From positions 22,972 to 86,971 of IMG/VR virus record IMGVR_UViG_3300027759_000070: 64,000 bases of DNA; one strand, 5' to 3'. The translations under genes and the position numbers were made by a program. Position 1 is the first letter of the stretch, and the number at the start of each line of letters is the position of its first letter. Shown here piece after piece: positions 16,256 to 42,392 of the stretch. The notes beneath the pieces were generated by a model, which was not told where the DNA came from, ran no database searches, and saw only the letters and a list, made by a program, of their open reading frames with translations. This DNA is from a virus.

Positions 16256-16633
16256 TTAATTATGTTGGTTTTTCAGAAAGTCAACATATTGTTTAATTTC
16301 TCTTTCTGATAATTCAAAATTTTTTGCTAAAATTTTAGTATCAGCATTTTCTTGAATTTTTTCTTCTTTGTTTTTCTTTAAATAACTAATTCTTTTTTTC
16401 TTTACTTTTGGTAAAATATTTAATAAGAATTCGTACTGTTCCTGTTTCGTGGAAAACGTCTTTCCATAGACATTTGTCGTTTGATTAAGTATCTCAGAAA
16501 TGTCGGGAGAATACATGCTACACCAGCGAGCAACCATATAATAATTGAACTGTGTTTCTCCTTCATTTATCGTATTTAGTTTCTTCTTATTGAATAAGAC
16601 AGAATCTATGAAATTAAATATTGTATCTTCCAT
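16256..16633 (-). CDS. 62: Clamp-loader small subunit, gp62-like
   Basis: gp62 works with gp44 to load the gp45 clamp. The 125-aa protein starts FNFIDSVLFNKKKL, followed by YYMVARWCSMYSPDISEILN and KQEQYEFLLNILPKVKKKRISYLKK. This order matches the short gp62 proteins of T4-like marine phages, which are smaller than T4 gp62 (187 aa). In T4, gp62 lies beside gp45 and gp44; here it is about 34 kb from gp45 and abuts the glycan island. The assignment is from pattern memory. Confidence 0.5.
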   Translation of the reverse strand: MEDTIFNFIDSVLFNKKKLNTINEGETQFNYYMVARWCSMYSPDISEILNQTTNVYGKTFSTKQEQYEFLLNILPKVKKKRISYLKKNKEEKIQENADTKILAKNFELSEREIKQYVDFLKNQHN

Positions 16634-17625
16634 TATTTTTCTAACTGTTCTTTAATCCACCAGTATACACTACTCAATCCCTTTTGTAAAGGGTAATTTG
16701 GCTTCCAGTTTAACTTCTTGAAAATCAACTCATTGTCGGAATTTCTGCCGCGAACACCAAGGGGTCCACTGATATGCTTTTTAACTAAATTTTTACTTTC
16801 CATCGAAGCCGCAATATCAACAAGTTGATTTATGGTAACCATCTCGTCCGAACCGATATTTACTGGACCAGTAAAATCAGATTCCATTAGTCTTCTTACT
16901 CCTTCAATACATTCGTCAATATACAGAAATGATCTGGTCTGTTTCCCATCACCCCATATTTCGATTTCTCCTCCATCTTTTGCCATTAATACTTTTCTGC
17001 AAATAGCTGCTGGTGCCTTTTCTTTTCCACCGTTCCAAGTTCCCATAGGACCAAAAATATTATGGAAGCGAGCAATACGGACATTCATTCCAAAATTTCT
17101 TGCATATGCCAAATAAAGTCTTTCGCTGAAAAGCTTTTCCCATCCATATTCACTATCTGGTGCAGCAGGATATGCAGACTCTTCTGAGCACTTTGGATTA
17201 TTCGGATCTTCTTGGTTGTATGCTGGGTACATACAGGCACTGCTCGAATAGAACACTTTCTTTACATTAAATTGTTTACAGAGTTCAGCGATGTTCAAAT
17301 TAATTTGAGCCGAATTATGCATCAAAACAGCATCATTATCACCACTAAAGATGTATCCAGCCCCACCCATGTCTGCTGCTAATTGATATACTTCATCAAA
17401 TGCGTTTTCTTTTTCATCCAAACTGTGTTGACCGGGTGCCATCATTAGCAATGAACATTTATTATAATCCGTTAAATCCGCAATCACAAAGTCATCCGCA
17501 GATGTTTTCGAATATTCTGGATACTTTAAATCCGCAGCACGAACCCAATATCCTTCAGACTTTAAACGATTGACCAAATGATTTCCGATAAATCCCCCTG
17601 CTCCTAGTACTAATGCTTTTTTCAT
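16633..17625 (-). CDS. GDP-mannose 3,5-epimerase (SDR superfamily)
   Basis: Converts GDP-D-mannose to GDP-L-galactose or GDP-L-gulose. The 330-aa protein has the NAD-binding GAGGFIG (8-14), SSSACMYP with the catalytic-type Cys131, the Y160-x3-K164 pair, KEKAPAAI, and NIGSDEMVTINQLVD near the end, all closely matching plant GME. It supplies a nucleotide sugar for the adjacent glycosyltransferases. The ATG overlaps nothing; the 3' end overlaps the gp62-like start by 1 base. It is the last sugar gene of the island in transcription order. Confidence 0.92.
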   Translation of the reverse strand: MKKALVLGAGGFIGNHLVNRLKSEGYWVRAADLKYPEYSKTSADDFVIADLTDYNKCSLLMMAPGQHSLDEKENAFDEVYQLAADMGGAGYIFSGDNDAVLMHNSAQINLNIAELCKQFNVKKVFYSSSACMYPAYNQEDPNNPKCSEESAYPAAPDSEYGWEKLFSERLYLAYARNFGMNVRIARFHNIFGPMGTWNGGKEKAPAAICRKVLMAKDGGEIEIWGDGKQTRSFLYIDECIEGVRRLMESDFTGPVNIGSDEMVTINQLVDIAASMESKNLVKKHISGPLGVRGRNSDNELIFKKLNWKPNYPLQKGLSSVYWWIKEQLEK

Positions 17626-17627
17626 AT

Positions 17628-18338
17628 TTAAATATTTTTTATAAAAATTCTATTGTGTCCAACACATGATAATTCTTCGTAATTCTTGTCAGTTTCCATA
17701 TGATCCTTTATGGCATCACAAACCTCTTTATGTCCCCTAAATATAGGCAATCCACCAAGATCCTTATAACATGATGCATCATCAAACACTATAACTCCTT
17801 TGTTTTTTGTTATTTCTTTAGCTAAAGCTATATCAGAAACTACCGTATCATAATCATGACCACCATCTACATAAATTAGATCAATAGGCCCAATTTTCTT
17901 AATTTCATCTTTTATAGAATTATCCGTAGAAAATCCTCGTATTATTTGTTTATCTAAATCAAATGGCAAAGAAAACTTATCAAATAATCCTTTAACTAAT
18001 TTAGGATAATCAACTTTATCATATGTTGAATATTTGTCTCCTGCATCAGATAATGGAGAAACCCCGTATATTGACGCATTTTTATTGTATTTTTTATTTA
18101 AAAATGTTATTAGATTCAATATCTGTCCTTTAAAAACTCCTATTTCTAGAAATGTAAATACGGAAGGCATTTCTTTTACTAATTCTCTCCACATTACATA
18201 ATGTGCATCATCAACAAACCCATAAGAATTCTGTTTAACATACTCTCTTATTAATTTTAATTTATCGTCACTCCTATATTCGGAATTACACAAATTATAC
18301 AAATCTACTTCGTTTTTATTTTTAAAAAATTCAAACAT
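17628..18338 (-). CDS. Class I SAM methyltransferase (Methyltransf_24-like)
   Basis: Probable methylation of a sugar or its hydroxyl group. The protein shows motif I FLEIGVFKGQIL and DLIYVDGGHDYDTVVSDI, the acidic post-motif typical of the CmcI-like family. I chose the ATG at 18338 (236 aa) over the in-frame TTG at 18350, because it starts 4 bases after the upstream stop. Confidence 0.75.
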   Translation of the reverse strand: MFEFFKNKNEVDLYNLCNSEYRSDDKLKLIREYVKQNSYGFVDDAHYVMWRELVKEMPSVFTFLEIGVFKGQILNLITFLNKKYNKNASIYGVSPLSDAGDKYSTYDKVDYPKLVKGLFDKFSLPFDLDKQIIRGFSTDNSIKDEIKKIGPIDLIYVDGGHDYDTVVSDIALAKEITKNKGVIVFDDASCYKDLGGLPIFRGHKEVCDAIKDHMETDKNYEELSCVGHNRIFIKNI

Positions 18339-18342
18339 AATA

Positions 18343-18936
18343 CTAGTCAATACAATTTTTAATGATTTCTGTATACTCTGCGTCTTTTGTGATTAACTTT
18401 TCGTATCGTTCTTTTGAAATATATTTTGGATTTATCCACCAATCTTCAAATGGATTTCCAGACAGATGTACATTATCTCCTACCAAAACATATCCTAAAC
18501 TACTTAAAAATTCTCTTTGAGGAATTTTTTCTGAAAGTTCGTATCCTCTGTAAGAATCATGTTCTATAGTCAAAACTTTAAATTCCCTACCAGAAGAAAA
18601 TACGTTTTTTAACGTCCGCACTCTCGTATTATCTCCTTCCAAATCAATAGTCAAATAATCAATTACAGCAGGAAAACCATTATCATCAAATAATTTTTTA
18701 TAGTCTATATTTAGAGCATCATTACAAACAAATTTAGTCTTTCTCTTTTGCCATTCTTTTGACAAATCGGTTATATCTAAAGATAATCCATCCCATCCTT
18801 CGTTTTCTAATTTTAATGTGTTGTTTATATTGTCTGGAACCCAGCATCCAATATCTACAAAAAACTTTTTATCATCAGTTTTTACCAAATACGAAACAAA
18901 TATATCTTGACCAGCTTGTGAAAAACTATCACTCAT
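18343..18936 (-). CDS. FkbM-type methyltransferase
   Basis: A 197-aa SAM-dependent O-methyltransferase candidate: SQAGQDIFVSYL at the start, FVDIGCWVPDNINNTL as motif I, LSLDITDLSKEW, and YLTIDLEGDNTRV as the acidic motif. First of three FkbM-like paralogues in the island. It likely decorates a glycan. Confidence 0.75.
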   Translation of the reverse strand: MSDSFSQAGQDIFVSYLVKTDDKKFFVDIGCWVPDNINNTLKLENEGWDGLSLDITDLSKEWQKRKTKFVCNDALNIDYKKLFDDNGFPAVIDYLTIDLEGDNTRVRTLKNVFSSGREFKVLTIEHDSYRGYELSEKIPQREFLSSLGYVLVGDNVHLSGNPFEDWWINPKYISKERYEKLITKDAEYTEIIKNCID

Positions 18937-18942
18937 ATCAAT

Positions 18943-19704
18943 TTACTTAATTAGATATTTTGCATTTTCAATACAAATTTGTTTATTATCATAATGATGA
19001 GTTACACAATTATAAGTTTGAACCACTTTGTAATTGTGTTTAAAAAATATCCAATTATTTGCAGTTTGTTCACAACAATGCCAAATTTTAGAATTTACGT
19101 CAGTAACATCAGAAATATCAACATTCACCATAGAATCACAAACAGATCTTAATTCTAATTCTGGATAATCATGTGGTATTCCAAGAACACCTAAATTATA
19201 AATTGGTATATCTGTTCTTCCAATAGTATTTTGTGCTACCTTTATTTCACCCATCAAAGGATTTCCTTCCTGTATTCTTCTTTCGTATTTCCATACAAAA
19301 ACTTCATTAGGATTTGGTTCTGGTAAAGCATCATGAAATATCAAATCATTATCAATCTTTACAGTAAATTCTGTACTACTTTTTGCATAATAAATAAAAT
19401 CGGTTAATACATCAAAACAATATTTTAATCCATTGGTATACTTTTTAAACATTGGAATAATGTCATGATATCTTACTCGATCTTGATCAATGTTGTATTT
19501 AAACATTTTTTCTTTCAGATACTCTATATCATCTGTGTATATGTCTAAAATTCTTTTTGGGTTTTTATCCACAAATGTAGCATAAGATGCGGCAGAATAT
19601 TCAAATATATAGTTCTTATTCCCATATACATCCTTTGCCCAAGATCTTCCAATCTCTGCTAATTTGTTTATGTCGTAATTATAAGTTAATGCAATTGTTT
19701 TCAT
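18943..19704 (-). CDS. Putative glycosyltransferase (GT-A-like)
   Basis: A 253-aa protein with no strong family match that I can name. The segment FTVKIDNDLIFHD around residue 125 contains a DxD-like metal motif, and WKYERR and the C-terminal HHYDNK fit a GT-A sugar transferase. It lies tightly packed (1-6 base gaps) between FkbM genes. Function is inferred mainly from context. Confidence 0.55.
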   Translation of the reverse strand: MKTIALTYNYDINKLAEIGRSWAKDVYGNKNYIFEYSAASYATFVDKNPKRILDIYTDDIEYLKEKMFKYNIDQDRVRYHDIIPMFKKYTNGLKYCFDVLTDFIYYAKSSTEFTVKIDNDLIFHDALPEPNPNEVFVWKYERRIQEGNPLMGEIKVAQNTIGRTDIPIYNLGVLGIPHDYPELELRSVCDSMVNVDISDVTDVNSKIWHCCEQTANNWIFFKHNYKVVQTYNCVTHHYDNKQICIENAKYLIK

Positions 19705-19705
19705 T

Positions 19706-20320
19706 TTATTTTTTAATGTAAAATCCGTCTCCCCAAGATACCCCAGCCCAATCTTGTTCTACTAATTCAAATCCATATGCTCCCAAAAAATTATTTAATT
19801 CATTTACAGATGGAGCATCTTTATAAACCATTTCTTTGTGTTCTGTGTTTCTGTTTATTTCACACATAATATAATCGATATGATTTAAAGTTTTTTCAGA
19901 ACCTTTCAAAACTTCCAACTCATATCCTTGGACATCAATGTTTAAAAAATTATAAAATGTGTAATTAAAATCATCTAATCGTTTCATTTCGACAATTTCT
20001 TTATTACTAAATCTTGTAGTACCCCAATCTAAATTAAAATTGGGTTCCAATATAGACGAACATCCACAAGCATCAACATCCTCTATAAACATTTCTATAG
20101 ATTTTGTTTCATTTCCTAATGCACAATTATGCAAAATAGCATCAGATATTTTACTTCTTAAAACGTCAAAAGTTTTTTTAACTGGTTCAAAATAAACAAG
20201 ATTTGATACATTTAAATTTTTGTATAATTCATGTTCTCCTCCATGATGGGCACCAATATGAATTATTCCATTTATTTTTAAGTTATATTTCTGATTAATC
20301 TGTGCTAAATCCAATATCAT
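19706..20320 (-). CDS. FkbM-type methyltransferase
   Basis: 204 aa. Motif I IIHIGAHHGGEHELY, then VYFEPVKKTFDVL, CGCSSILEPN and FLNIDVQGYELEVLKG, the classic FkbM signature. The ATG overlaps the stop of the upstream glycosyltransferase (ATGA), so the two are translationally coupled. Confidence 0.85.
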   Translation of the reverse strand: MILDLAQINQKYNLKINGIIHIGAHHGGEHELYKNLNVSNLVYFEPVKKTFDVLRSKISDAILHNCALGNETKSIEMFIEDVDACGCSSILEPNFNLDWGTTRFSNKEIVEMKRLDDFNYTFYNFLNIDVQGYELEVLKGSEKTLNHIDYIMCEINRNTEHKEMVYKDAPSVNELNNFLGAYGFELVEQDWAGVSWGDGFYIKK

Positions 20321-21015
20321 ATTGTACCTCTAATATCTTTATTAATCCCGTATTCCTGTAGTAATGGATTTAATTCGTCTGGATATTCTGATGTATTCCA
20401 TTTACCTTTGACCAAAGCTGTTGCTATATACGGATAAACGTCCGAATCATAATGATTCTGTCCTCTTTTTGATTCGTTGTCATAATGATATAGTCCTTTT
20501 AAATTTAGCTCTATGCATTTTTGTACATAAGTTTCGTTCTCAAACCATTTCGAAGCCTTTACCTCTTTATATAGTTTTATAAAATCTGATGTTCTCCATA
20601 TAGTAGGTTGCATCGAAAATATGTTTTGATTATCAGACTCAATCTCATACAAAGTATTTGAAAGCTGAATCTTATTCAAAGCTCCAGACTTTATCAACCT
20701 GATAAATGAATATTCTGGATTTTCTTTTAAAAATTCTTTATACTCATTCAACTTATCTTCGTTTACCTTATTATACAAAACAAAATCTTCTTGTAGATAT
20801 ATAAAAAATTCTGGGTTTATGTCTTCTAAAGTTTGAACCCATGTTTGCCAATAAGGTTGAGAATTTTTGTAAATATAAATGTTTTTATATTTTTTATCAT
20901 TATGGGGAACATCAGATAATAGATATAATCGGTATGAACAAAATTTTTTGTTTTGTTCATAAAACATATCCCATACATCAGACGTATTACTATTGGTATA
21001 ACATACTTGTATCAT
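20317..21015 (-). CDS. Putative glycosyltransferase
   Basis: 232 aa. FIYLQEDFVLYNKV around residue 85-98 resembles the acidic nucleotide-sugar site of GT-A enzymes, and ESKRGQNHYDSDVYPYIATALVKGKW resembles phage/bacterial transferases acting on surface sugars. The start is set at 21015 where ATGA overlaps the upstream stop; the longer frame would extend into the previous gene. Confidence 0.6.
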   Translation of the reverse strand: MIQVCYTNSNTSDVWDMFYEQNKKFCSYRLYLLSDVPHNDKKYKNIYIYKNSQPYWQTWVQTLEDINPEFFIYLQEDFVLYNKVNEDKLNEYKEFLKENPEYSFIRLIKSGALNKIQLSNTLYEIESDNQNIFSMQPTIWRTSDFIKLYKEVKASKWFENETYVQKCIELNLKGLYHYDNESKRGQNHYDSDVYPYIATALVKGKWNTSEYPDELNPLLQEYGINKDIRGTI

Positions 21016-21431
21016 AAATAATCTACACAAACTCCGTAACAGTTGTAATTTTTACTTTTCCAATCTTTATCAAAATCTACTATAATTGATCTATCAACAA
21101 CATCTTTATTAGGATATGTCCATATATATCCAGATGATGTTAATGTACAATCATCTTCTTGATGCCAAAAACAATTTTTAATGTTATATTTCAACATGTA
21201 ATGCAATGCATCTAAATTCTTTGCGTGGCACCACAACCCATACTTTTGAAGGAATTCGTGATTAACAATATATGTTGGTTTGTCATGTCCCAAAATAATA
21301 AGTCCATCTTGAAACCAAACATCAATTTCTACTTCAATGTTTTTATCAAGCAATGAACTGATGTGATTTGGGTTATTTTCTAAATATTCGTTAGTACCAC
21401 TAACATTTCCTCTATGAGATATTATCAACAT
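21012..21431 (-). CDS. Glycerophosphodiester phosphodiesterase-like protein
   Basis: The 139-aa protein begins ISHRGNVSG and continues VEIDVWFQDGLIILGHDKPTY, the His-Arg-Gly plus Glu/Asp and GHD arrangement of the GDPD TIM barrel. At 139 aa it is shorter than typical GDPDs (about 240 aa) and covers mainly the active-site half. It may release or transfer glycerol-phosphate on a glycan. ATGA overlap downstream and 20-base overlap upstream show tight coupling. Confidence 0.7.
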   Translation of the reverse strand: MLIISHRGNVSGTNEYLENNPNHISSLLDKNIEVEIDVWFQDGLIILGHDKPTYIVNHEFLQKYGLWCHAKNLDALHYMLKYNIKNCFWHQEDDCTLTSSGYIWTYPNKDVVDRSIIVDFDKDWKSKNYNCYGVCVDYL

Positions 21432-22059
21432 AATCTTTATTGACTGCTAATATGTCTCCTTCTCCATATGGATGGGGGCATGGAATGAATTCAACTTTAA
21501 AATTATTTTGTGTTAAAAATTCTTCCAGATCTGTTTTTAATATATGACCCTCATAATAAGGAGAAACCGATGCTTCACAATGGATGAATTTTACATTTTT
21601 TAGGAAATCCCCCATACCTTTCAAAGCCAAAAGCTCGACACCCTGCGTATCCATCCACAATACATCAACAGATTCTATATTGTTTTCTATTAACCATTCA
21701 TCTAATCTTACACAATCTACTGATATCTTTTTACAGTCTTGTGTACTGGCAAAAGGAACATCTATTGGTTTTAATAATGATGAGGCACCGATATTTCCTA
21801 AAGTCAAATAAAAATCTAATTGTCCCTTTACGTCACCTACAGCAAATTGATACACATAAACATTTGGACATGTTTTTGATTTTTTTTCACATATATCAAA
21901 CTGACTTGGATTCGGCTCAAATGCATGTATGGTCGAAGTTGGAAAAGTTTTAGAGAATTCTATGCTTTGATCTAAATCCCTAGATCCAACATCCAATATT
22001 ATTTTTGGATTTATTCCCCCATGAGAATTTATAAATGATATGAAGTTATCTATTAGCAT
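21412..22059 (-). CDS. FkbM-type methyltransferase
   Basis: 215 aa. IILDVGSRDLDQSIEF (motif I), IHAFEPNPSQFDIC, GASSLL, and VLWMDTQGVELLALKG (FkbM acidic motif). Third FkbM paralogue in the island. It starts 7 bases inside the end of the RuBisCO-like gene. Confidence 0.85.
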   Translation of the reverse strand: MLIDNFISFINSHGGINPKIILDVGSRDLDQSIEFSKTFPTSTIHAFEPNPSQFDICEKKSKTCPNVYVYQFAVGDVKGQLDFYLTLGNIGASSLLKPIDVPFASTQDCKKISVDCVRLDEWLIENNIESVDVLWMDTQGVELLALKGMGDFLKNVKFIHCEASVSPYYEGHILKTDLEEFLTQNNFKVEFIPCPHPYGEGDILAVNKDYVDNIS

Positions 22060-23243
22060 TTAATTACACCCCATTTTTCTATAGCTTGATGATATTCATC
22101 ACCATACTCTTTATCTATGCTCTGTCTCATAGATTTTGCTCCAGCTAATGTTCCATTTGGATGTCCATGAATACCACCACCAACATTAGCCATATAATCA
22201 ACACCTAATCGGCTATTAACCATTTCTGTCAGCCCAGCATTGAATCCACAGCTTATAGCTGGCATTACATTTAATTCCGTAAGAATCTTACAAGAATCAA
22301 TTACTTCCTGTTCGTCCCACTTATAATACCCTCCAATCATACCAGCATGTATGAAATCCACGCCACTTAATCCTGCAATCTTACAAATTACTCTCCAATC
22401 AATATGGAATGCATGGGATTTGTTTGTAAAAATTTTGTCTCCACTTTTTTGGAAGTGAATGAAAATCGGCAAGTCCAATTCTCTAATTGATCTGTACACA
22501 CCTAACCCACACCAAAAATTAACATGAACAGAATTCCCCCCTAAAGAATGTACTAGTTTTACTCTTTCCAAAATCTTGTCTGGGTCACAATGAATTGATA
22601 CCGAATAAATTACATTCTTATCTTTTAAATAATCCATTATCAAAGGGACACGTTCTTCAAGAGGACACAAGTCAAACTCAGACATAATTTCGTCCTCCTT
22701 AATAAAGTTGACACCACCATCAACTAATTCTTTCACCATTTCTAATAAAACTTGGGGTGTTACACCAATTTTAGGTTTAACTATTGCTCCTAATACTGGT
22801 TTATCGTATGAATTTACAAACTTCCTAATTCCAGATATTCCATACTTTGGCCCTTTGAATTCAGATAAAATAGAATCAGGAAATTCTATGTCTAATACAT
22901 GACATTGGTCAACTACATCAATATCCAGTTGCCCACCCATTAAATTTACTAGCAAATGAGATATTCCGTTGTTTTTAAAGTTGATGTTTACGGTTGGGAA
23001 CGCAATATCGACAATACCTTCAACTCTAGATTCTAGATTTTTTTTATCATCCAAAATGATACAAGAATATTTTTCAAACAATTCTTCGGTTTCCCATTTG
23101 TTTCGTACTTTAGGATTTCCTACAGACTGTCCAATCGCCAATGCCCATGCGGCATCATTTAAATTTGTTGTTGACTTTATGTAGTACTTAACAATCAAAT
23201 AATCATCTTTGTTTATATCTTCTAATTTTTTATAGATGTTCAT
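22053..23243 (-). CDS. RuBisCO-like protein (form IV type)
   Basis: A 396-aa member of the RuBisCO large-subunit superfamily. Aligned by eye to spinach RuBisCO: K175/K177 are Lys156/Lys158 (KPKIG); the carbamylated K201 with D203 and E204 are Lys182, Asp184 and Glu185 (IKEDE); H294 is His263; H327 is His299; S379 and the GGG phosphate loop are Ser331 and Gly355-357. R295 is replaced by Phe264, and loop-6 K334 by Tyr306 with a Lys two residues on. This suggests a sugar-phosphate enolase, isomerase or decarboxylase and not CO2 fixation. It has its own late-like box and lies inside the glycan island. Confidence 0.88.
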   Translation of the reverse strand: MNIYKKLEDINKDDYLIVKYYIKSTTNLNDAAWALAIGQSVGNPKVRNKWETEELFEKYSCIILDDKKNLESRVEGIVDIAFPTVNINFKNNGISHLLVNLMGGQLDIDVVDQCHVLDIEFPDSILSEFKGPKYGISGIRKFVNSYDKPVLGAIVKPKIGVTPQVLLEMVKELVDGGVNFIKEDEIMSEFDLCPLEERVPLIMDYLKDKNVIYSVSIHCDPDKILERVKLVHSLGGNSVHVNFWCGLGVYRSIRELDLPIFIHFQKSGDKIFTNKSHAFHIDWRVICKIAGLSGVDFIHAGMIGGYYKWDEQEVIDSCKILTELNVMPAISCGFNAGLTEMVNSRLGVDYMANVGGGIHGHPNGTLAGAKSMRQSIDKEYGDEYHQAIEKWGVIKC

Positions 23244-23249
23244 TGAACT

Positions 23250-23255
23250 TATTTA
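23250..23255 (-). promoter_or_regulatory. Late box TAAATA, 6 bases before the RuBisCO-like ATG
   Basis: TAAATA-AGTTCA-ATG on the minus strand. It marks an internal transcription start within the glycan island. Confidence 0.55.
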
Positions 23256-23279
23256 AAATTTAATTTAGTAAAATCAAGA

Positions 23280-23600
23280 TTAAATTAAAATTTTATCCCC
23301 AACAACACTAGGAGTTTTAACTACACACAAATAACAGTCTTCTAGGAAGACTGGATCAGCTATTTCATTTGGAAAAATCACAAATACATCCCCAGAATTT
23401 AATTCTTGACCTTGTATAGTCATTTTTCCAGAGATTAAAAAATTAATTTCTGTTAATTTTTCGTGATAATGTGCTTCCCAAAATTCTCCTTTTTTATGAA
23501 CTTTATACCCTACTTCAAAATCTTGGGTTTTGTAACAACTAGGTTCAAAATTTCCCACAAACCATCCACCCTTATAATCTTCGATTTTTGTTATTTTCAT
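23280..23600 (-). CDS. Small cupin protein
   Basis: A 106-aa single-domain cupin: EAHYHEKLTEINFLISGKM gives the first metal-binding motif (two His and one Glu), followed by LNSGDVFVIFPNEIADPVF as the second motif, where the usual His is replaced by Asp or Ala. It may be a sugar epimerase or isomerase, or a metal-sensing partner of the island. Its ATG overlaps the previous stop (ATGA). Located directly upstream of the RuBisCO-like gene. Confidence 0.75.
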   Translation of the reverse strand: MKITKIEDYKGGWFVGNFEPSCYKTQDFEVGYKVHKKGEFWEAHYHEKLTEINFLISGKMTIQGQELNSGDVFVIFPNEIADPVFLEDCYLCVVKTPSVVGDKILI

Positions 23601-24355
23601 AAAATAAACTTACACTTTTCTAATAAATTCTTTTTATATAAATGGTATTTATATATGTAATGATGATTTAAAATACATAAGATATTACCAATTACTAGAT
23701 TAGTAGATCTTTCATTTATTGGTTTTAATATCTCATTACTAAATTCGTTATGTGTATTTGATATAGGCCAACCTTCAACAAAAAGTTTTTTAAAATAATC
23801 ACTATCATCCATCAAGTATTCAAAAAGATCATCATATAATTCACAAATAAGTTTTATATTTTCATAAGAAGAATAAAACCAATGTTCAGTCATACCAGAA
23901 TTTAATTGATTCCATGTCTTACAGTATACTAAATTTGTGTCAATATTTTCTTCAAAATTTAAAACACAAAGATGATCCTGTGGAGCATTATATATTCCGT
24001 GCCAATTGAATACATCAAACCTACAAATTATTACACAATCATATTTGTCTTGTATAAAATCAAAACATTGTTTTCTAGAATAAGTGTAACTAAACAGTTT
24101 ATATAATGATGTTCCTCCAGATTCTAGTTTTTCTGGATTAAACATTTTTATTTCTTCGCTGAAATCTTTTTGTACTTCAAATTTATGATTTACTGGTTTA
24201 TACTTTTTTAGTATATCATTTATTATTTCAGTATTAGTCTCCCATGCGTGTATGTACACATCCACATCATATTTTGATAATATATGATCGTTTAATATCT
24301 CAAATGATCTAGAATAATCATTGGTCAGACCACATATACATAACGCAATTTTCAT
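23597..24355 (-). CDS. Putative glycosyltransferase
   Basis: 252 aa. Begins KIALCICGLTNDYSRSFEILNDHIL and contains DVYIHAWETN and DCVIICRFDV, features seen in WavE-like and other lipopolysaccharide transferases (R-x-D for metal and nucleotide sugar). No closer family can be named from the sequence. Coupled to the cupin gene by a 4-base overlap. Confidence 0.6.
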   Translation of the reverse strand: MKIALCICGLTNDYSRSFEILNDHILSKYDVDVYIHAWETNTEIINDILKKYKPVNHKFEVQKDFSEEIKMFNPEKLESGGTSLYKLFSYTYSRKQCFDFIQDKYDCVIICRFDVFNWHGIYNAPQDHLCVLNFEENIDTNLVYCKTWNQLNSGMTEHWFYSSYENIKLICELYDDLFEYLMDDSDYFKKLFVEGWPISNTHNEFSNEILKPINERSTNLVIGNILCILNHHYIYKYHLYKKNLLEKCKFIL

Positions 24356-25078
24356 TTATAACAAAATGTATTTATTTAAATCTTCGGGGGTTCCTATAGG
24401 GAAATGCAAATTAAAATAATAGGGATGAATTTTTTTATTATTTTTAATCAAATAATTATAAGTAGGTGCTACATAAAATTCATTATTATATCTTTCATTA
24501 TTTTCTATCATAATTTTTGCAGAATCTACGAAAAGTGATCCGTGTTTCCAAAAGTGGAACCCATTAGTAGCTATGTTGCTTATAACAACTTTTTCTTTAA
24601 CATCGACTATTTCAAAGTTATCATTTAGTTTGACATAACTATTTTTATTTGAAACTGAATTAAACACACCTAAAATTCCATCACTATTATTGCGATTGGA
24701 ATATTTTATGATCGTATTTATATTTAAATCTTCTGTTATTTGATCACAGTTTGTTATTACCAAAGGAGTTTCATTATCAATTAAGTGCTGAGATAACAAG
24801 CAAGTACAAGCAGATCCTTCTGTTAGATAATCTATTGATATAATTTCAAAATTTACATTCAATCTTTTGCATATGCTTTGTAAATTATGAATTGGTAATT
24901 CCTTTCTAGTTATAAAAATAAACCTAGTATTTTTGAGTTGATTATTATTCTCTATAACACGTTCTATCATTGGCTTCCCATTTACATCTATAAATGGTTT
25001 AAATTCATTTGGATGTGTTTTTTGGAACCTTGATCCTAAACCAGCCATAGGTATCAATATGTTTAAATTTTCATTCAT
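24356..25078 (-). CDS. Sugar-1-phosphate nucleotidyltransferase-like protein
   Basis: 240 aa. N-terminal IPMAGLGSRFQKTHP is the NTP-binding loop, followed by EFKPFIDVNGKPMIERVI, TEGSACTCLL and VITNCDQI with the metal-binding Asp. It belongs to the capsular-cluster branch of the NTP_transferase family and would activate a sugar phosphate or polyol phosphate to an NDP derivative. The substrate is unknown; the product of the nearby RuBisCO-like protein is a possibility. Confidence 0.8.
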   Translation of the reverse strand: MNENLNILIPMAGLGSRFQKTHPNEFKPFIDVNGKPMIERVIENNNQLKNTRFIFITRKELPIHNLQSICKRLNVNFEIISIDYLTEGSACTCLLSQHLIDNETPLVITNCDQITEDLNINTIIKYSNRNNSDGILGVFNSVSNKNSYVKLNDNFEIVDVKEKVVISNIATNGFHFWKHGSLFVDSAKIMIENNERYNNEFYVAPTYNYLIKNNKKIHPYYFNLHFPIGTPEDLNKYILL

Positions 25079-25674
25079 AATTTATAGCAATCGTGTTTTT
25101 TATATTCGCTTATTCTTGTGTTGTATTTTATCCAATGTAGATCATTGTTGTCGTTTAAATCATTTAATATAAAATTAACAGGAACACCATCTAAGTAATT
25201 ATAAAATCTTCTAGTTAAAATTTGTTCCACAAAATCAGTAGTTCTTACATCATCAATTTCCCATAATTTTATTAGATCTTCCGTTTTGGCAGACATAAAA
25301 TAATCAATAAAATATTTTCCTGATTGTGGGCTACCCACATGTTGTCCTATAAAATTAAATTTATGAAAATCTATTATCTTCATAAATTCATTAAAATTAG
25401 TAGGAATCAAGTCGTTTCTTAATTTTAAAATATATTCGTATCCCTTTTCTTTGCAAAGATATAATCCATTTAAGCTACATACTTTTTGATAGTAAAAAAG
25501 ATGAGGACCAGCTTCTATTGGAGGTTCATTAAACAAAACAATATCATTACTGTGGTATTTCTGCTCATCACCTTTCCATGTAGAAAAAATTAAATTAAAC
25601 CCAGAAAATGCTTTTTTAATTTCTGGAATATTTGTGCTTTTTCCTGTAATTAAAATTACAAAATTAAAATTCAC
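25075..25674 (-). CDS. WavE-like glycosyltransferase, GTG start
   Basis: 199 aa from the GTG at 25674, which overlaps the upstream stop by 11 bases; no ATG lies near the N-terminus. FVILITGKSTNIPEIKKAF, IFSTWKGDE and ILKLRNDLIPTN match the WavE/LPS-core transferase pattern. The C-terminus holds DGVPVNFIL. The longer open frame upstream lies inside the previous gene. Confidence 0.65.
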   Translation of the reverse strand: MNFNFVILITGKSTNIPEIKKAFSGFNLIFSTWKGDEQKYHSNDIVLFNEPPIEAGPHLFYYQKVCSLNGLYLCKEKGYEYILKLRNDLIPTNFNEFMKIIDFHKFNFIGQHVGSPQSGKYFIDYFMSAKTEDLIKLWEIDDVRTTDFVEQILTRRFYNYLDGVPVNFILNDLNDNNDLHWIKYNTRISEYKKHDCYKL

Positions 25675-26401
25675 AATTTTTATTATAATATAGTTGATTT
25701 TCGAACATGTAAGACCTAGTCTTACTTCCTTTGGTATACTCATCCAAAGCAGATCCAATATCAATGTATCTTCCAACTTTTTGAGTATCTAATCCTGATA
25801 AGAAATCGATAATAACTTCACTCATCGGACCAGCAGATATCAAATATAATTCAGGTCTTAATGCAATTTTAGACAATTCATTCAAGAATTCATTCTTTTT
25901 GTCTTCCCAAAAATTTACACAATCATCATTAACAGGTATAAAATCTAAAACATCAAATGGATATTTTCTATTAGATCCTTCTTTGTTTGCTATCAAAATA
26001 ACCTTTTCATCTATATTTTGAATTACATTTTTAAATTTTTTGTAATTTCCGTTAATCCATAAATTCGAATATGTTATGTTTTCCATATCAACTCCAGCAA
26101 TTTTTAAATTATCTAGAATGATTTTTTTCCCATAAGGATCACAACATCCACAAGAAATTCCATAAAATTTATCTGGGCTTTTGTTTTTTAAACTATTTGC
26201 GAGATCTTTTCCTAATTTAGTTTTGTGTGATGGAGCATTCCACTTGTCCTTTTGGAACGCTTGTGTGTGGTTTCCCACTTCTTTACCCATCATTAAGGCC
26301 AATTCACCATCGGCGTATCTAGAAAATATCGTGTGTTGTTTTTTTACGAAAATTCTATCAATCAAGTATTCGAAATCTTTACTAAAATCTTGTGTCATCA
26401 T
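25664..26401 (-). CDS. GT-D-fold glycosyltransferase-like protein (DUF1792-like)
   Basis: 245 aa. TIFSRYADGELALMMG near residue 25-40 gives the D-G-E motif of the GT-D fold (DUF1792), and the C-terminal SAGPMSEVIIDFL...GRYIDIGSALDEY matches the end of the domain. In streptococcal serine-rich glycoproteins this fold adds glucose to a preceding sugar. Starts by ATGA overlap with the 2-epimerase gene. Confidence 0.72.
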   Translation of the reverse strand: MMTQDFSKDFEYLIDRIFVKKQHTIFSRYADGELALMMGKEVGNHTQAFQKDKWNAPSHKTKLGKDLANSLKNKSPDKFYGISCGCCDPYGKKIILDNLKIAGVDMENITYSNLWINGNYKKFKNVIQNIDEKVILIANKEGSNRKYPFDVLDFIPVNDDCVNFWEDKKNEFLNELSKIALRPELYLISAGPMSEVIIDFLSGLDTQKVGRYIDIGSALDEYTKGSKTRSYMFENQLYYNKNCEF

Positions 26402-27396
26402 ATATTCTTTAATAGTTTTGCTATCTTTTTTGCTGAATTTCCGTCACCAAAAGGGCATGGATAACTTATTTGATAATCTTTACTTATTTTTGAAACCAAA
26501 GAACTCAAATTTTTTGGAGACATACAAAGGATTCCATGATAATGGAGACATTCTGCTCTTTCTGTGGTTTCTCTACAGATGATAATTTTCTTATTTAAGA
26601 AAGATGCTTCTTCTTGAATGCCACCACTATCAGTAATAACAAATCTACAATCTTTTAAAATATCAATCAAATCCGAATGATTCAAAGAATCAACAACTTT
26701 TACATGCTTGAAAATGTTTTTGTGTTTAATCACATTTGGATTTGGATGTATGGGAAGTATAAATTCCAAATCATTATATTGTTCTGCTAATTTATCTATT
26801 TCTGTAAACCATTCCTCTATAATGTCGTGGTTTTCTCTCCTGTGAAGAGTTACCAAAACTTTGTTTCCATACGAAGGAACTACATGAGTAATATTATCTA
26901 GTACAGTATTACCAACTACATATACATGATTATAGTTTGTTATTTTTTCTGCCTCCAGACAAGCCGCATTATCATTAGTTGCACACAAATGAATGTCGGC
27001 AATTCTACTAATTAATTGCCGATTTGCTTCTTCTGGATATGGATGATTTAGATCATATGTTCTCAACCCAGCTTCCAAATGAATGATCTTTATTTTGTTA
27101 TTAAAAGCCCACAATGCCACCGCAAAAGCTGAAGATGTATCTCCTTGGACTAATACATGAGTGAAGCATTCTATGGGTATAGAACAAGTTAATACATTTG
27201 CAATAACAGAATTTAATCTATTATCACTTAATTGCTTTTGTTCTATACTGTAATCGACCTTTATATCTTTTAGAAGATCCGTATGTTGTCCAGTAAAGAA
27301 TAAAGAATACTCAATATTATTACTATTAAATTCTTGGAGCAATGGCTTTATCTTCAGCCATTCTGGTCTTGTTCCAAATGATACTAATACATTCAT
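26398..27396 (-). CDS. UDP-N-acetylglucosamine 2-epimerase (WecB family)
   Basis: Interconverts UDP-GlcNAc and UDP-ManNAc. The 332-aa protein has GTRPEWLK, VQGDTSS, HLEAGLRT with PEEANRQL, VTLHRREN, ILPIHPNP, TDSGGIQEEA and ETTERAE, the full set of family motifs. It provides UDP-ManNAc to the island. T4-like phages do not usually carry this enzyme. Confidence 0.93.
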   Translation of the reverse strand: MNVLVSFGTRPEWLKIKPLLQEFNSNNIEYSLFFTGQHTDLLKDIKVDYSIEQKQLSDNRLNSVIANVLTCSIPIECFTHVLVQGDTSSAFAVALWAFNNKIKIIHLEAGLRTYDLNHPYPEEANRQLISRIADIHLCATNDNAACLEAEKITNYNHVYVVGNTVLDNITHVVPSYGNKVLVTLHRRENHDIIEEWFTEIDKLAEQYNDLEFILPIHPNPNVIKHKNIFKHVKVVDSLNHSDLIDILKDCRFVITDSGGIQEEASFLNKKIIICRETTERAECLHYHGILCMSPKNLSSLVSKISKDYQISYPCPFGDGNSAKKIAKLLKNI

Positions 27397-28124
27397 TAAC
27401 CTCTTAGTAATTTAAATCCTTTATTTTTATATTCGGTTAAAGCAATCCCAAACATATTTAAATGATCTGGCTTTTGAGAAATTGCATTATTATCCGCTCC
27501 AAACTGCCATCCATAACTAGGAATACTCCCCCACATTTCCATATCTTCTTTTGGATGTGGTGGTACTAATGTTCTTGTATTCAAATACTTCTGAATTGAA
27601 TAGGAAAAATGTGTATCTTCTCCACAAAGTAAAGAATTCGGAACAGTTGCTTCCTGCCAAAAAGCTGTGATAAACTTTCTAGGGAAAAACCAAGAATGCC
27701 CCACAATATCAACTTGTGTGGTTTCTGAATTGGCCGAGTGCCACCCAACATCTTCTGCTATGCTATAGTTATAATCATTAAATATAACCCCTCTCGTACC
27801 ATAAAGTGCTTCTTCATTTTTCATTTCATTCATACAATTCTCAAACCACTTTTTACCCGGTATTGTGTCATCATCAAATACACATATATAATCACCTGTT
27901 GTATTTAACACATGAGAAAATCTAGACCAAACTCCAAAATTGTAATTTGATATAACGGTTCTATACTTATTAAAGATTGATTTGTCAAACTTATCAAATT
28001 TATCGGATGCGTTTACCCACAACATTATTTCGTGTGGTTTTATTGTTTGATTCTCGATTGCTTCTATTTGAAGTTTTAAACTTTCATAACGTCTAAAACA
28101 ATTAATTATAACGCTTATTTTCAT
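27396..28124 (-). CDS. Family 2 glycosyltransferase
   Basis: 242 aa. ISVIINCFRRYESL at the start, YICVFDDDTIPGKKWF with the DxD motif, and CGEDTHFSY as the acceptor-side acidic motif. The GT-A fold is clear; the donor sugar is unknown. Confidence 0.85.
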   Translation of the reverse strand: MKISVIINCFRRYESLKLQIEAIENQTIKPHEIMLWVNASDKFDKFDKSIFNKYRTVISNYNFGVWSRFSHVLNTTGDYICVFDDDTIPGKKWFENCMNEMKNEEALYGTRGVIFNDYNYSIAEDVGWHSANSETTQVDIVGHSWFFPRKFITAFWQEATVPNSLLCGEDTHFSYSIQKYLNTRTLVPPHPKEDMEMWGSIPSYGWQFGADNNAISQKPDHLNMFGIALTEYKNKGFKLLRG

Positions 28125-28125
28125 A

Positions 28126-29007
28126 TTAAATTTTATGATACAACTCTTTAACTTTTTTTGCTACATTTGATGCATGAAATTTATCCAAATCATCAGGGGG
28201 ATTATGTAATTTTTTGTTTAAAATATCGCCTTTGCTGTTAACATCGTAAATCCATCCAGACTTACCACACAACCATCCTTCAATAGTGGTTCTTCCTAAA
28301 AGGATTCCAGCAGTCTCATCACATCTTTGGACATATTTTTGTACATCGTCTACTGCATTAGAGTGTTTAACATGTTTATGTTTTAATAATTCTCCCAAAT
28401 AATTATCTGAATTATTTCCCACCAACCAAAAATCTTTGTTTATACTCTTAGTATATTCGACTAAATCAAATATTGTATTCTTTCTTAAATAATCTATAGT
28501 CCCAACAAATAGCACAGCATTGTGATCCTTTGTTTCTATTTTTTTAAATCTGGTTTCATCGATTGGATTGTATATAATTTCAATAGAAGATGAAGAAATT
28601 TTAAAATTATTGATTAAATGATCTTTTATTTCTGGTCTTATTGCGATATATTTTTTAATAGATTCGTGAATAACAGGATCTTCTAAAGATATGACTTCTG
28701 AGTGAATCGTACAGATCTTTTTTGTTTTTGGGTATACCTTAATTAATTCTTGTACTACGGGTTTATGCTGACAATGTATTATATCATACTGATCTGTCCC
28801 CCTGATGCTAGAAAATTCTTGAACCTTTATACCACACTTTAATGCCAAATCTGTCAATTTACCACCAATATAAGGGGATACTACAGTTACATCACAATTT
28901 AACTGTAGTAAATTTCTCGCCAATTCATACACATACATCTCAGATCCTGTAAAATCCTTAAAAAGTAGACACCCAATAAGTACTTTGGTTTTTTTCTCTT
29001 CGGTCAT
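28126..29007 (-). CDS. GT-B glycosyltransferase (family 4-like)
   Basis: 293 aa. GSEMYVYELARNL near residue 20, IIHCQHKPVV, a linker SSSIEIIYNPID and VLFVGTIDYLRKNT define the two Rossmann domains. The usual E-x7-E ends as TTIEGWLCGK. First gene of the island in the direction of transcription; an AT-rich box lies just upstream of its ATG. Confidence 0.75.
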   Translation of the reverse strand: MTEEKKTKVLIGCLLFKDFTGSEMYVYELARNLLQLNCDVTVVSPYIGGKLTDLALKCGIKVQEFSSIRGTDQYDIIHCQHKPVVQELIKVYPKTKKICTIHSEVISLEDPVIHESIKKYIAIRPEIKDHLINNFKISSSSIEIIYNPIDETRFKKIETKDHNAVLFVGTIDYLRKNTIFDLVEYTKSINKDFWLVGNNSDNYLGELLKHKHVKHSNAVDDVQKYVQRCDETAGILLGRTTIEGWLCGKSGWIYDVNSKGDILNKKLHNPPDDLDKFHASNVAKKVKELYHKI

Positions 29008-41158: not shown

Positions 41159-41184
41159 TTTAAATAGATATAAATCTATTTAAA
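41159..41184. repeat. AT-rich inverted repeat ending at a start codon
   Basis: Two 11-bp arms (TTTAAATAGAT and its complement) with a 4-base spacer; the last base is the A of the ATG of the next gene. May be an operator or simply extended promoter sequence. Confidence 0.5.
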
Positions 41185-42392
41185 TGATAACATCCTTTAC
41201 ACCTCCTAAACCATTTCAAGGATTTACTCCTGTTGTTCCTCAATCACCAACACCACAACAAAACTCTTTACCCCAAGAACCATCAGAAACACAATTACCG
41301 AGAGTTATCCAGTTTGGTGCAGATTTGAGTGGTTGTGGGTTATATCGTCTAGGGTGGGTTAGTCATCTTTTAAATTATCAAGGATCTATGATGGTTACAG
41401 ACACTACCGTAATGGTATTAGATCCTAGATGGTATGTTAATGTAAAAGCTGTCAGATTACAAAGACAAGCTACATCAGCTCAATTGGAGTTTGTTAAATT
41501 TTTAAAAGATGTTCAAAAAAAAGTTGGATTTAAGATCATTTACGAAGTTGATGATGTAGTTTTTAGAGAAGATATTCCCGATTATAATAAATTTAAAACC
41601 GCATTTACATCTGATGAAATTAGAAATAATGTAAAAGAAATTATAAATCTTTGTGATGAAGTTAGTGTAACTTGTGATTACATGAGAAATTTATACACAG
41701 AAAGAGTTGGAAAGAAAGAGATTACTGTTATTCCTAATTTTCCTGCTAAATTTTGGATAGGTAATTATTTTAATCCTAATAGAATAAATGATTTATATGA
41801 CAAAAATAAAAAGAAGCCTCGTGTCCTTTATGCTGGTAGTGGTGCTCATTTTGATGTCGAAAATCGAGTGGGTCAAAAAGACGATTTCGAACATGTCATC
41901 AAAGCAATAATCGACTCCAGACACAAATATCAGTGGGTGTTTTTGGGTGCTTTCCCTCCCCCAATCAGACCATACATTGAAAACGGAGACATTGAATTTC
42001 ACCAATGGCAGAGACTCTACGATTATCCGCAAAAGATTTATGATTTGGGAGTACAGATGATGGTTGCGCCTTTGCAGGACAATTCATTCAATAGATCCAA
42101 GAGTGATTTGAAATATATCGAAGCATGTGCATACGGATTACCTGTTGCGTGTCAAGATATGTGTACATATAAAGATGCTGAACTTAAATTCAAAACAGGC
42201 GATGAAATGTTATATCGCATGGAATATGAACTCAGCAGAGCAGGACATTACAAGAATAGCACATATAAGAGACGAAAAGTTGCAGAAGATCGCTTCTTGG
42301 AATTGGATCGTAACTTAGGTTGTTATAATGAATTGTTCTTGACTCCATATGGGTCACCCGAAAGAAAGAATCTAAAACGATACAATCCTTGA
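41184..42392 (+). CDS. GT-B glycosyltransferase next to the DNA polymerase
   Basis: 402 aa. A Pro/Gln-rich N-terminal tail (residues 1-40) precedes RVIQFGADLSGCGLYRLGW. Later, FKIIYEVDD, PRVLYAGSGAHFD and APLQDNSFNRSKSDLKYIEACAYGLPVACQD define a GT4-like enzyme. Its place beside gp43 raises the option that it modifies DNA or virion proteins and not surface glycan. Confidence 0.8.
   Translation: MITSFTPPKPFQGFTPVVPQSPTPQQNSLPQEPSETQLPRVIQFGADLSGCGLYRLGWVSHLLNYQGSMMVTDTTVMVLDPRWYVNVKAVRLQRQATSAQLEFVKFLKDVQKKVGFKIIYEVDDVVFREDIPDYNKFKTAFTSDEIRNNVKEIINLCDEVSVTCDYMRNLYTERVGKKEITVIPNFPAKFWIGNYFNPNRINDLYDKNKKKPRVLYAGSGAHFDVENRVGQKDDFEHVIKAIIDSRHKYQWVFLGAFPPPIRPYIENGDIEFHQWQRLYDYPQKIYDLGVQMMVAPLQDNSFNRSKSDLKYIEACAYGLPVACQDMCTYKDAELKFKTGDEMLYRMEYELSRAGHYKNSTYKRRKVAEDRFLELDRNLGCYNELFLTPYGSPERKNLKRYNP

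Follow-up and report, generated by a model that had tools for sequence, protein, structure and literature searches.

A phage-centred RuBisCO-like protein family probably used to build an unusual surface-coat sugar

In the excerpts of the literature drawn on here, known RuBisCO-like proteins (RLPs) serve sulfur salvage or sugar catabolism (PMC6302742), and marine RuBisCO homologues that join no known form appear in the 2007 Global Ocean Sampling (GOS) paper (PMC1821046). Excerpts of virome studies report viral rbcL as an auxiliary gene (PMC8506154), in one case with an ‘RbcL-like’ clade (PMC12607003) and in another with claimed activity, among auxiliary metabolic genes that are 25–36% identical to known genes (PMC12615777). 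Here we analyse an RLP encoded in a 64,000-nucleotide stretch of viral DNA (IMG/VR record IMGVR_UViG_3300027759_000070, positions 22,972 to 86,971; hereafter the window, whose numbering is used for all coordinates). The protein looks, from its residues, unable to fix CO2, and a sugar-1-phosphate nucleotidyltransferase (NTase) is its near-constant neighbour; together these suggest that it probably serves phages in making an unusual surface-coat sugar. No RLP/NTase module is described in the excerpts of the publications that we found, in a search with preprints and most subscription journals outside its reach.

The reading frame is real and lies on the minus strand, for which the initial annotation gave no assignment (Table 1). 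Its place in the RuBisCO superfamily, proposed at that stage, holds: the product matches Pfam RuBisCO_large (E = 2.8e-36) and RuBisCO_large_N (E = 4.4e-4), both above cut-off. An AlphaFold model built from 44 aligned family members (mean pLDDT 92.9) has the RuBisCO fold, and the best of its 879 PDB matches at E ≤ 0.001 is a form III RuBisCO, with a TM(query) of 0.88 and 26% identity; a Chlorobium RLP is 23–24% identical in the same fold search. Compared with the nearest relative (L001), non-synonymous divergence (dN) is 0.05 and synonymous divergence (dS) about 1.5, the latter near saturation, and the gene is under strong purifying selection. We dismiss a chance open reading frame because of these values and of the 338 viral relatives described below.

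We aligned 66 non-redundant family members with RuBisCO forms I–IV (MAFFT), checked the result by profile–profile comparison (hhalign) and numbered positions as in spinach. The equivalents of K175, K177, K201, D203, E204, S379, G381, G403 and G404 are invariant in all 66 sequences. The metal site is therefore intact, with K182, D184 and E185 standing for K201, D203 and E204 throughout, and carbamylation of the lysine is predicted. The initial mapping of these three residues and of K156 (K175), K158 (K177), H299 (H327) and Y306 (K334) proved correct. The glycines of the phosphate site, which had also been noted, are likewise invariant. His263 and Phe264, by comparison, had been placed two positions off as H294 and R295. 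Both MAFFT and hhalign pair Q265 with H294 and K266 with R295, and we adopted that mapping, although one pairwise phmmer alignment instead pairs H263 with a histidine of MtnW (2,3-diketo-5-methylthiopentyl-1-phosphate enolase). Changed in all 66 members are E60 to G (G38), T65 to N (N43), N123 to G (G104), H294 to Q, K334 to Y and G380 to C. At the R295 equivalent, 44 sequences have K and 22 have S; at that of H298, 44 have D and 22 have A; and at that of H327 (H299), 37 have H and 29 have Q. The Q at H299 and the changes at E60, T65 and N123 are additions to the earlier description. Residue patterns at 266, 269 and 299 do not track the presence of a neighbouring cupin gene across RLP loci. 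In RuBisCO chemistry, the residues kept here serve metal binding, enolization and the P1 phosphate site, and those lost serve to hold and carboxylate ribulose 1,5-bisphosphate (RuBP). Our best reading of the alignment is a non-carboxylating family that would retain the metal/carbamate site.

In an unrooted maximum-likelihood tree of 27 family members and 33 references (forms I, II, II/III and III, MtnW, OiaX-type and other RLPs; the named R. rubrum (DeepYkr-type) and Chlorobium RLPs were not among them), all 27 members fall on one side of a branch of length 1.5 with support of 100/99, as a clade of their own apart from each of the sampled carboxylase forms and from the MtnW and OiaX-type proteins. 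MtnW and one divergent relative (L084) form long branches. Every NCBIfam RuBisCO or RLP equivalog model scores the window protein far under its cut-off: 189 bits against 497 for form III, the best model, 157 against 409 and 130 against 513.6 for the MtnW models, and 142 against 700 for OiaX. The designation as form IV thus survives in the loose sense of a kept fold with lost carboxylase residues; as membership of the MtnW or OiaX class it does not, given these scores and the separate clade. With MtnW, the phage RLP has in common a non-carboxylating character, a kept metal site and the loss of the E60 and K334 equivalents, but K177, lost in MtnW, is kept, and we saw no methionine-salvage partner.

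The excerpts of the virome papers (PMC8506154, PMC12607003, PMC12615777) present viral rbcL as a carbon-fixation gene, that is, one that would carboxylate RuBP on behalf of the host. The RuBisCO fold, form III enzymes as the nearest PDB structures and form III as the best NCBIfam model all agree with such a role, and form III and II/III enzymes share with the RLP the carbamate lysine and metal site, K175, K177 and the phosphate-loop glycines. We nevertheless consider carbon fixation extremely improbable here: the E60, N123, H294 and K334 equivalents are replaced in 66 of 66 sequences, identity to those enzymes is about 26%, the form III score is below cut-off and the clade is separate. In addition, no phosphoribulokinase (PRK) was found in the 21 RLP-carrying virus records searched, and the surrounding genes are glycan genes, whereas form III and II/III RuBisCOs have an AMP or Calvin context.

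The family is phage-centred, and its spread over hundreds of phages went unmentioned in the initial annotation. IMG/VR relatives number 176 by single-sequence scan and at least 338 viral contigs by profile-based scan, and those retained are 51–91% identical. Run against 84,980 species genomes, the single-sequence scan returned only three loci (L082, L083 and L084), of which two are probably phage. L084 (JAAXIF010000028.1; G003:C58), labelled ‘Sphingobacteriales’, was ruled out as a cellular relative: its 142-kb contig has T4-like genes for portal, baseplate wedge, SbcC and terminase and is therefore a phage contig binned in a Sphingobacteriales metagenome-assembled genome. Several further contigs of that genome have terminase matches. 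L083 is a 6-kb contig that clusters with viral sequences in the tree. The contig of L082 carries Obg and ComM/Mg-chelatase genes together with glycosyltransferases and is therefore a genuine Patescibacteria polysaccharide locus, so that the RLP module also occurs in one bacterial setting; this sequence nests within the viral group, at an exact position that is weakly supported, which fits transfer from phages. No further member was found in a sample of 395 Bacteroidota and 380 Patescibacteria genomes, in which family scores were 457–676 bits and the next homologues reached at most 219 bits. The plasmid matches listed are known RuBisCO or RLP types, at most about 30% identical. INPHARED phages yielded no RLP homologue, PHROGs has no family for it, and BFVD returned generic barrels only (best TM 0.41); missing from these three resources, the family has been overlooked by standard phage annotation. 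A T4-type portal is present in all seven other RLP records of at least 172 kb that were checked, with widely differing scores, and the carriers are therefore diverse T4-like phages. The window phage encodes a T4-type portal, UvsX, SbcC/SbcD, DNA polymerase and SSB.

We compared neighbourhoods by clustering the open reading frames of 83 RLP loci besides the window, some of them near-copies (66 non-redundant RLPs). The NTase occurs in 80 of the 83, and 81 of its 82 copies have the same orientation as the RLP, in most cases upstream of it by one or two genes. A tie to nucleotide-sugar synthesis, suggested initially from the neighbours, is thus borne out as a gene association and is far stronger than first drawn. 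A miniature GDPD-like phosphodiesterase (mini-GDPD), a partner not previously recognized, is found in 65 loci, and a small cupin in 54, with 42 copies directly upstream of the RLP. The next commonest family, an NAD-dependent epimerase, occurs in 30 loci, and the remainder of the island is highly variable among phages. Distances between RLPs correlate with those of the cupin (Spearman 0.42), the NTase (0.28) and, weakly, the mini-GDPD (0.13), values as high as which arose in none of 500 permutations; the control epimerase shows no correlation (−0.10). Cupin and NTase are partly co-inherited with the RLP, the cupin best, and the control epimerase is not. The variability of the rest of the island is what one would expect around a passenger gene functionally unconnected to those beside it in a fast-shuffling region, but the constancy and closeness of the NTase, the correlations far above permutation and the strong purifying selection make that highly unlikely.

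An alternative gene order, GDPD–NTase–RLP–c336–c337 without a cupin, occurs in L026, L048, L055, L062 and relatives. The c336 product has no Pfam match; in L048, c337 is an FkbM methyltransferase and the locus adjoins DnaB, primase and Thy1 genes.

The R. rubrum RLP, a 5-methylthioribulose-1-phosphate 1,3-isomerase of an isoprenoid/methylthioadenosine shunt, is likewise paired with a cupin enzyme, a methylsulfurylase, a likeness in the pairing of the genes. An RLP-then-cupin pathway is thus already known (excerpt of PMC6302742), and of the pairs compared here RLP and cupin show the strongest co-inheritance, as expected if the phage protein isomerized 5-methylthioribulose-1-phosphate and passed it to the cupin. 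We regard this as unlikely, because it leaves the NTase and mini-GDPD unaccounted for, no MtnA-family isomerase was found in the 21 RLP-carrying records (hosts could supply one), the RLP stands apart from MtnW in a tree without the R. rubrum protein, and the cupin profile retrieved no such enzyme from the PDB at E ≤ 0.01. What that profile did retrieve were weak matches to small cupins, one named mannose-6-phosphate isomerase. Within the cupin family, H44 and E51, of metal-ligand type, are invariant, and H46 is present in at least 90%.

The NTase profile finds its nearest matches among sugar-1-phosphate nucleotidyltransferases, with 4evw first, ahead of mannose-1-phosphate guanylyl-, heptose-pathway and RmlA-type transferases. 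In the mini-GDPD, H6, R7, E35, D37 and H49 are invariant, so that the GDPD catalytic motifs (HRG, ExD and H) are present, in a protein of 139 amino acids that is little above half of GDPD length and short of the roughly 240 residues of a full (beta/alpha)8 barrel. Its confident model has a GDPD as best PDB match, a weak one (E = 7.4e-3, TM 0.56), and bacterial GDPDs align over residues 1–53 or so only. This family of about 140–150 amino acids is nearly confined to viruses, usually near the NTase (window 21012–21431; L001–L080, L085–L088). Among the cellular genomes searched, only that of L082 has a full-length copy; the L083 contig starts within one, and the plasmids searched had none.

NTase and mini-GDPD also occur without the RLP in cultured cyanophages. 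The modules of S-PRM1, S-CAM9 and B23 share both families and a setting in T4-like phage glycan islands, but lack RLP and cupin and have the NTase fused to a beta-phosphoglucomutase-like HAD domain. In 53 loci found through the S-PRM1 mini-GDPD, the NTase is present in 50 and an RLP or cupin in none. A long N-terminal NTase extension is seen in 44 of 51 cases in cyanophage-type loci versus 4 of 88 in RLP loci, and the three extensions checked (S-PRM1, B23 and L013) are HAD domains of this kind. Bellamy has the NTase fused to an RpiB-type isomerase (L088:8992-10146) and S-SKS1 to RibB (L089:8004-9428), both above curated cut-offs. Other sugar-phosphate enzymes therefore occupy the place beside the NTase where the RLP is absent. 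RpiB and RibB both use ribulose 5-phosphate, which is at most a hint that the NTase family may be supplied with pentulose phosphates.

We hypothesize, with somewhat better than even confidence, that the RLP is a non-carboxylating sugar-phosphate enolase or isomerase that supplies a nucleotide-sugar precursor. It would bind a ketose (or diketo-sugar) phosphate and abstract a proton, with the K175 equivalent as general base, to give a metal-bound enediolate, which would be reprotonated or rearranged, yielding an isomer or epimer. The cupin next to the RLP may handle this intermediate or the following one, the NTase would activate the sugar phosphate so formed, and glycosyltransferases of the island would attach the activated sugar to a surface glycan; the mini-GDPD may cleave a phosphodiester formed by, or downstream of, the NTase. 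Several points weigh against this pathway. Its support is sequence, predicted fold and gene association, with the activity, substrate and product of the RLP predicted only. The cupin was not found in about one-third of RLP loci, and RLP and NTase show modest co-inheritance (0.28), which would be expected were phages also exchanging the NTase. The RpiB and RibB fusions are single cases each, four RLP loci also carry the HAD–NTase fusion, so that replacement is not strict, and the role of the mini-GDPD is unexplained.

OiaX-type RLPs (3-oxo-isoapionate-4-phosphate decarboxylase) act on branched sugar acids. They resemble the phage protein as RLPs on a sugar-derived phosphate, and a set with OiaX-type members aligns with it over the full profile length, so that decarboxylation or transcarboxylation of branched sugar-acid phosphates can be envisaged as its role. 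We find this doubtful, as the OiaX score is far below cut-off and residues at 177, 295, 298 and 334 differ. Moreover, OiaX-type genes have a catabolic context, most of those fetched being followed by a four-carbon acid sugar kinase, whereas none was seen among the window neighbours and the viral locus looks biosynthetic. 

For the enolase or isomerase reading in its fullest form, namely a mainly T4-like-phage RuBisCO clade repurposed to make a new nucleotide-activated sugar with a dedicated cupin, an NTase and a virus-specific miniature phosphodiesterase, we put the chances at about even.

Within the window, the placement of the RLP inside the glycan island of a phage, here a T4-like one, is confirmed by the glycosyltransferases, methyltransferases and epimerases around it (Table 1). 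The 252-amino-acid protein between cupin and NTase is possibly a glycosyltransferase, by position only. A lone glycosyltransferase-like gene (phrog_7162) lies at 41184–42392 on the opposite strand, amid DNA-replication genes.

Table 1. The RLP gene and its surroundings in the window
Feature	Position	Strand	Basis or remark
Glycan island, one-directional gene run with GT2/GT4-type glycosyltransferases, methyltransferases and epimerases	16633..29007	-	ORF (open reading frame) list, Pfam
NAD-dependent sugar epimerase/dehydratase (PF01370)	16633..17625	-	Domain match
Mini-GDPD-like phosphodiesterase, 139 aa	21012..21431	-	HRGN/ExD/GHD residues conserved; in 65/83 RLP loci
FkbM methyltransferase; start overlaps RLP stop by 7 bases	21412..22059	-	ORF list, Pfam
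RuBisCO-like protein (RLP), 396 aa	22053..23243	-	Pfam, fold model, tree, residue alignment
Small cupin, 106 aa, directly upstream of RLP	23280..23600	-	In 54/83 RLP loci
252-aa protein between cupin and NTase, no Pfam match	23597..24355	-	Profile scan
Sugar-1-phosphate nucleotidyltransferase family protein (NTP_transferase), 240 aa	24356..25078	-	Pfam; in 80/83 RLP loci
UDP-N-acetylglucosamine 2-epimerase (Epimerase_2)	26398..27396	-	Pfam

These observations matter for viromes in which rbcL is scored as CO2 fixation, as the family spans at least 338 viral contigs and each of the 66 sequences examined lacks the carboxylase residues; surveys of viromes may be counting members of this non-carboxylase-like family as viral rbcL. 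With a phage-centred clade linked to an NTase, the RuBisCO superfamily would gain a biosynthetic role and a pathway open to testing. If the proposed function is true, the superfamily would have an anabolic role in glycan synthesis, and there would be reason against reading viral rbcL matches as carbon fixation.
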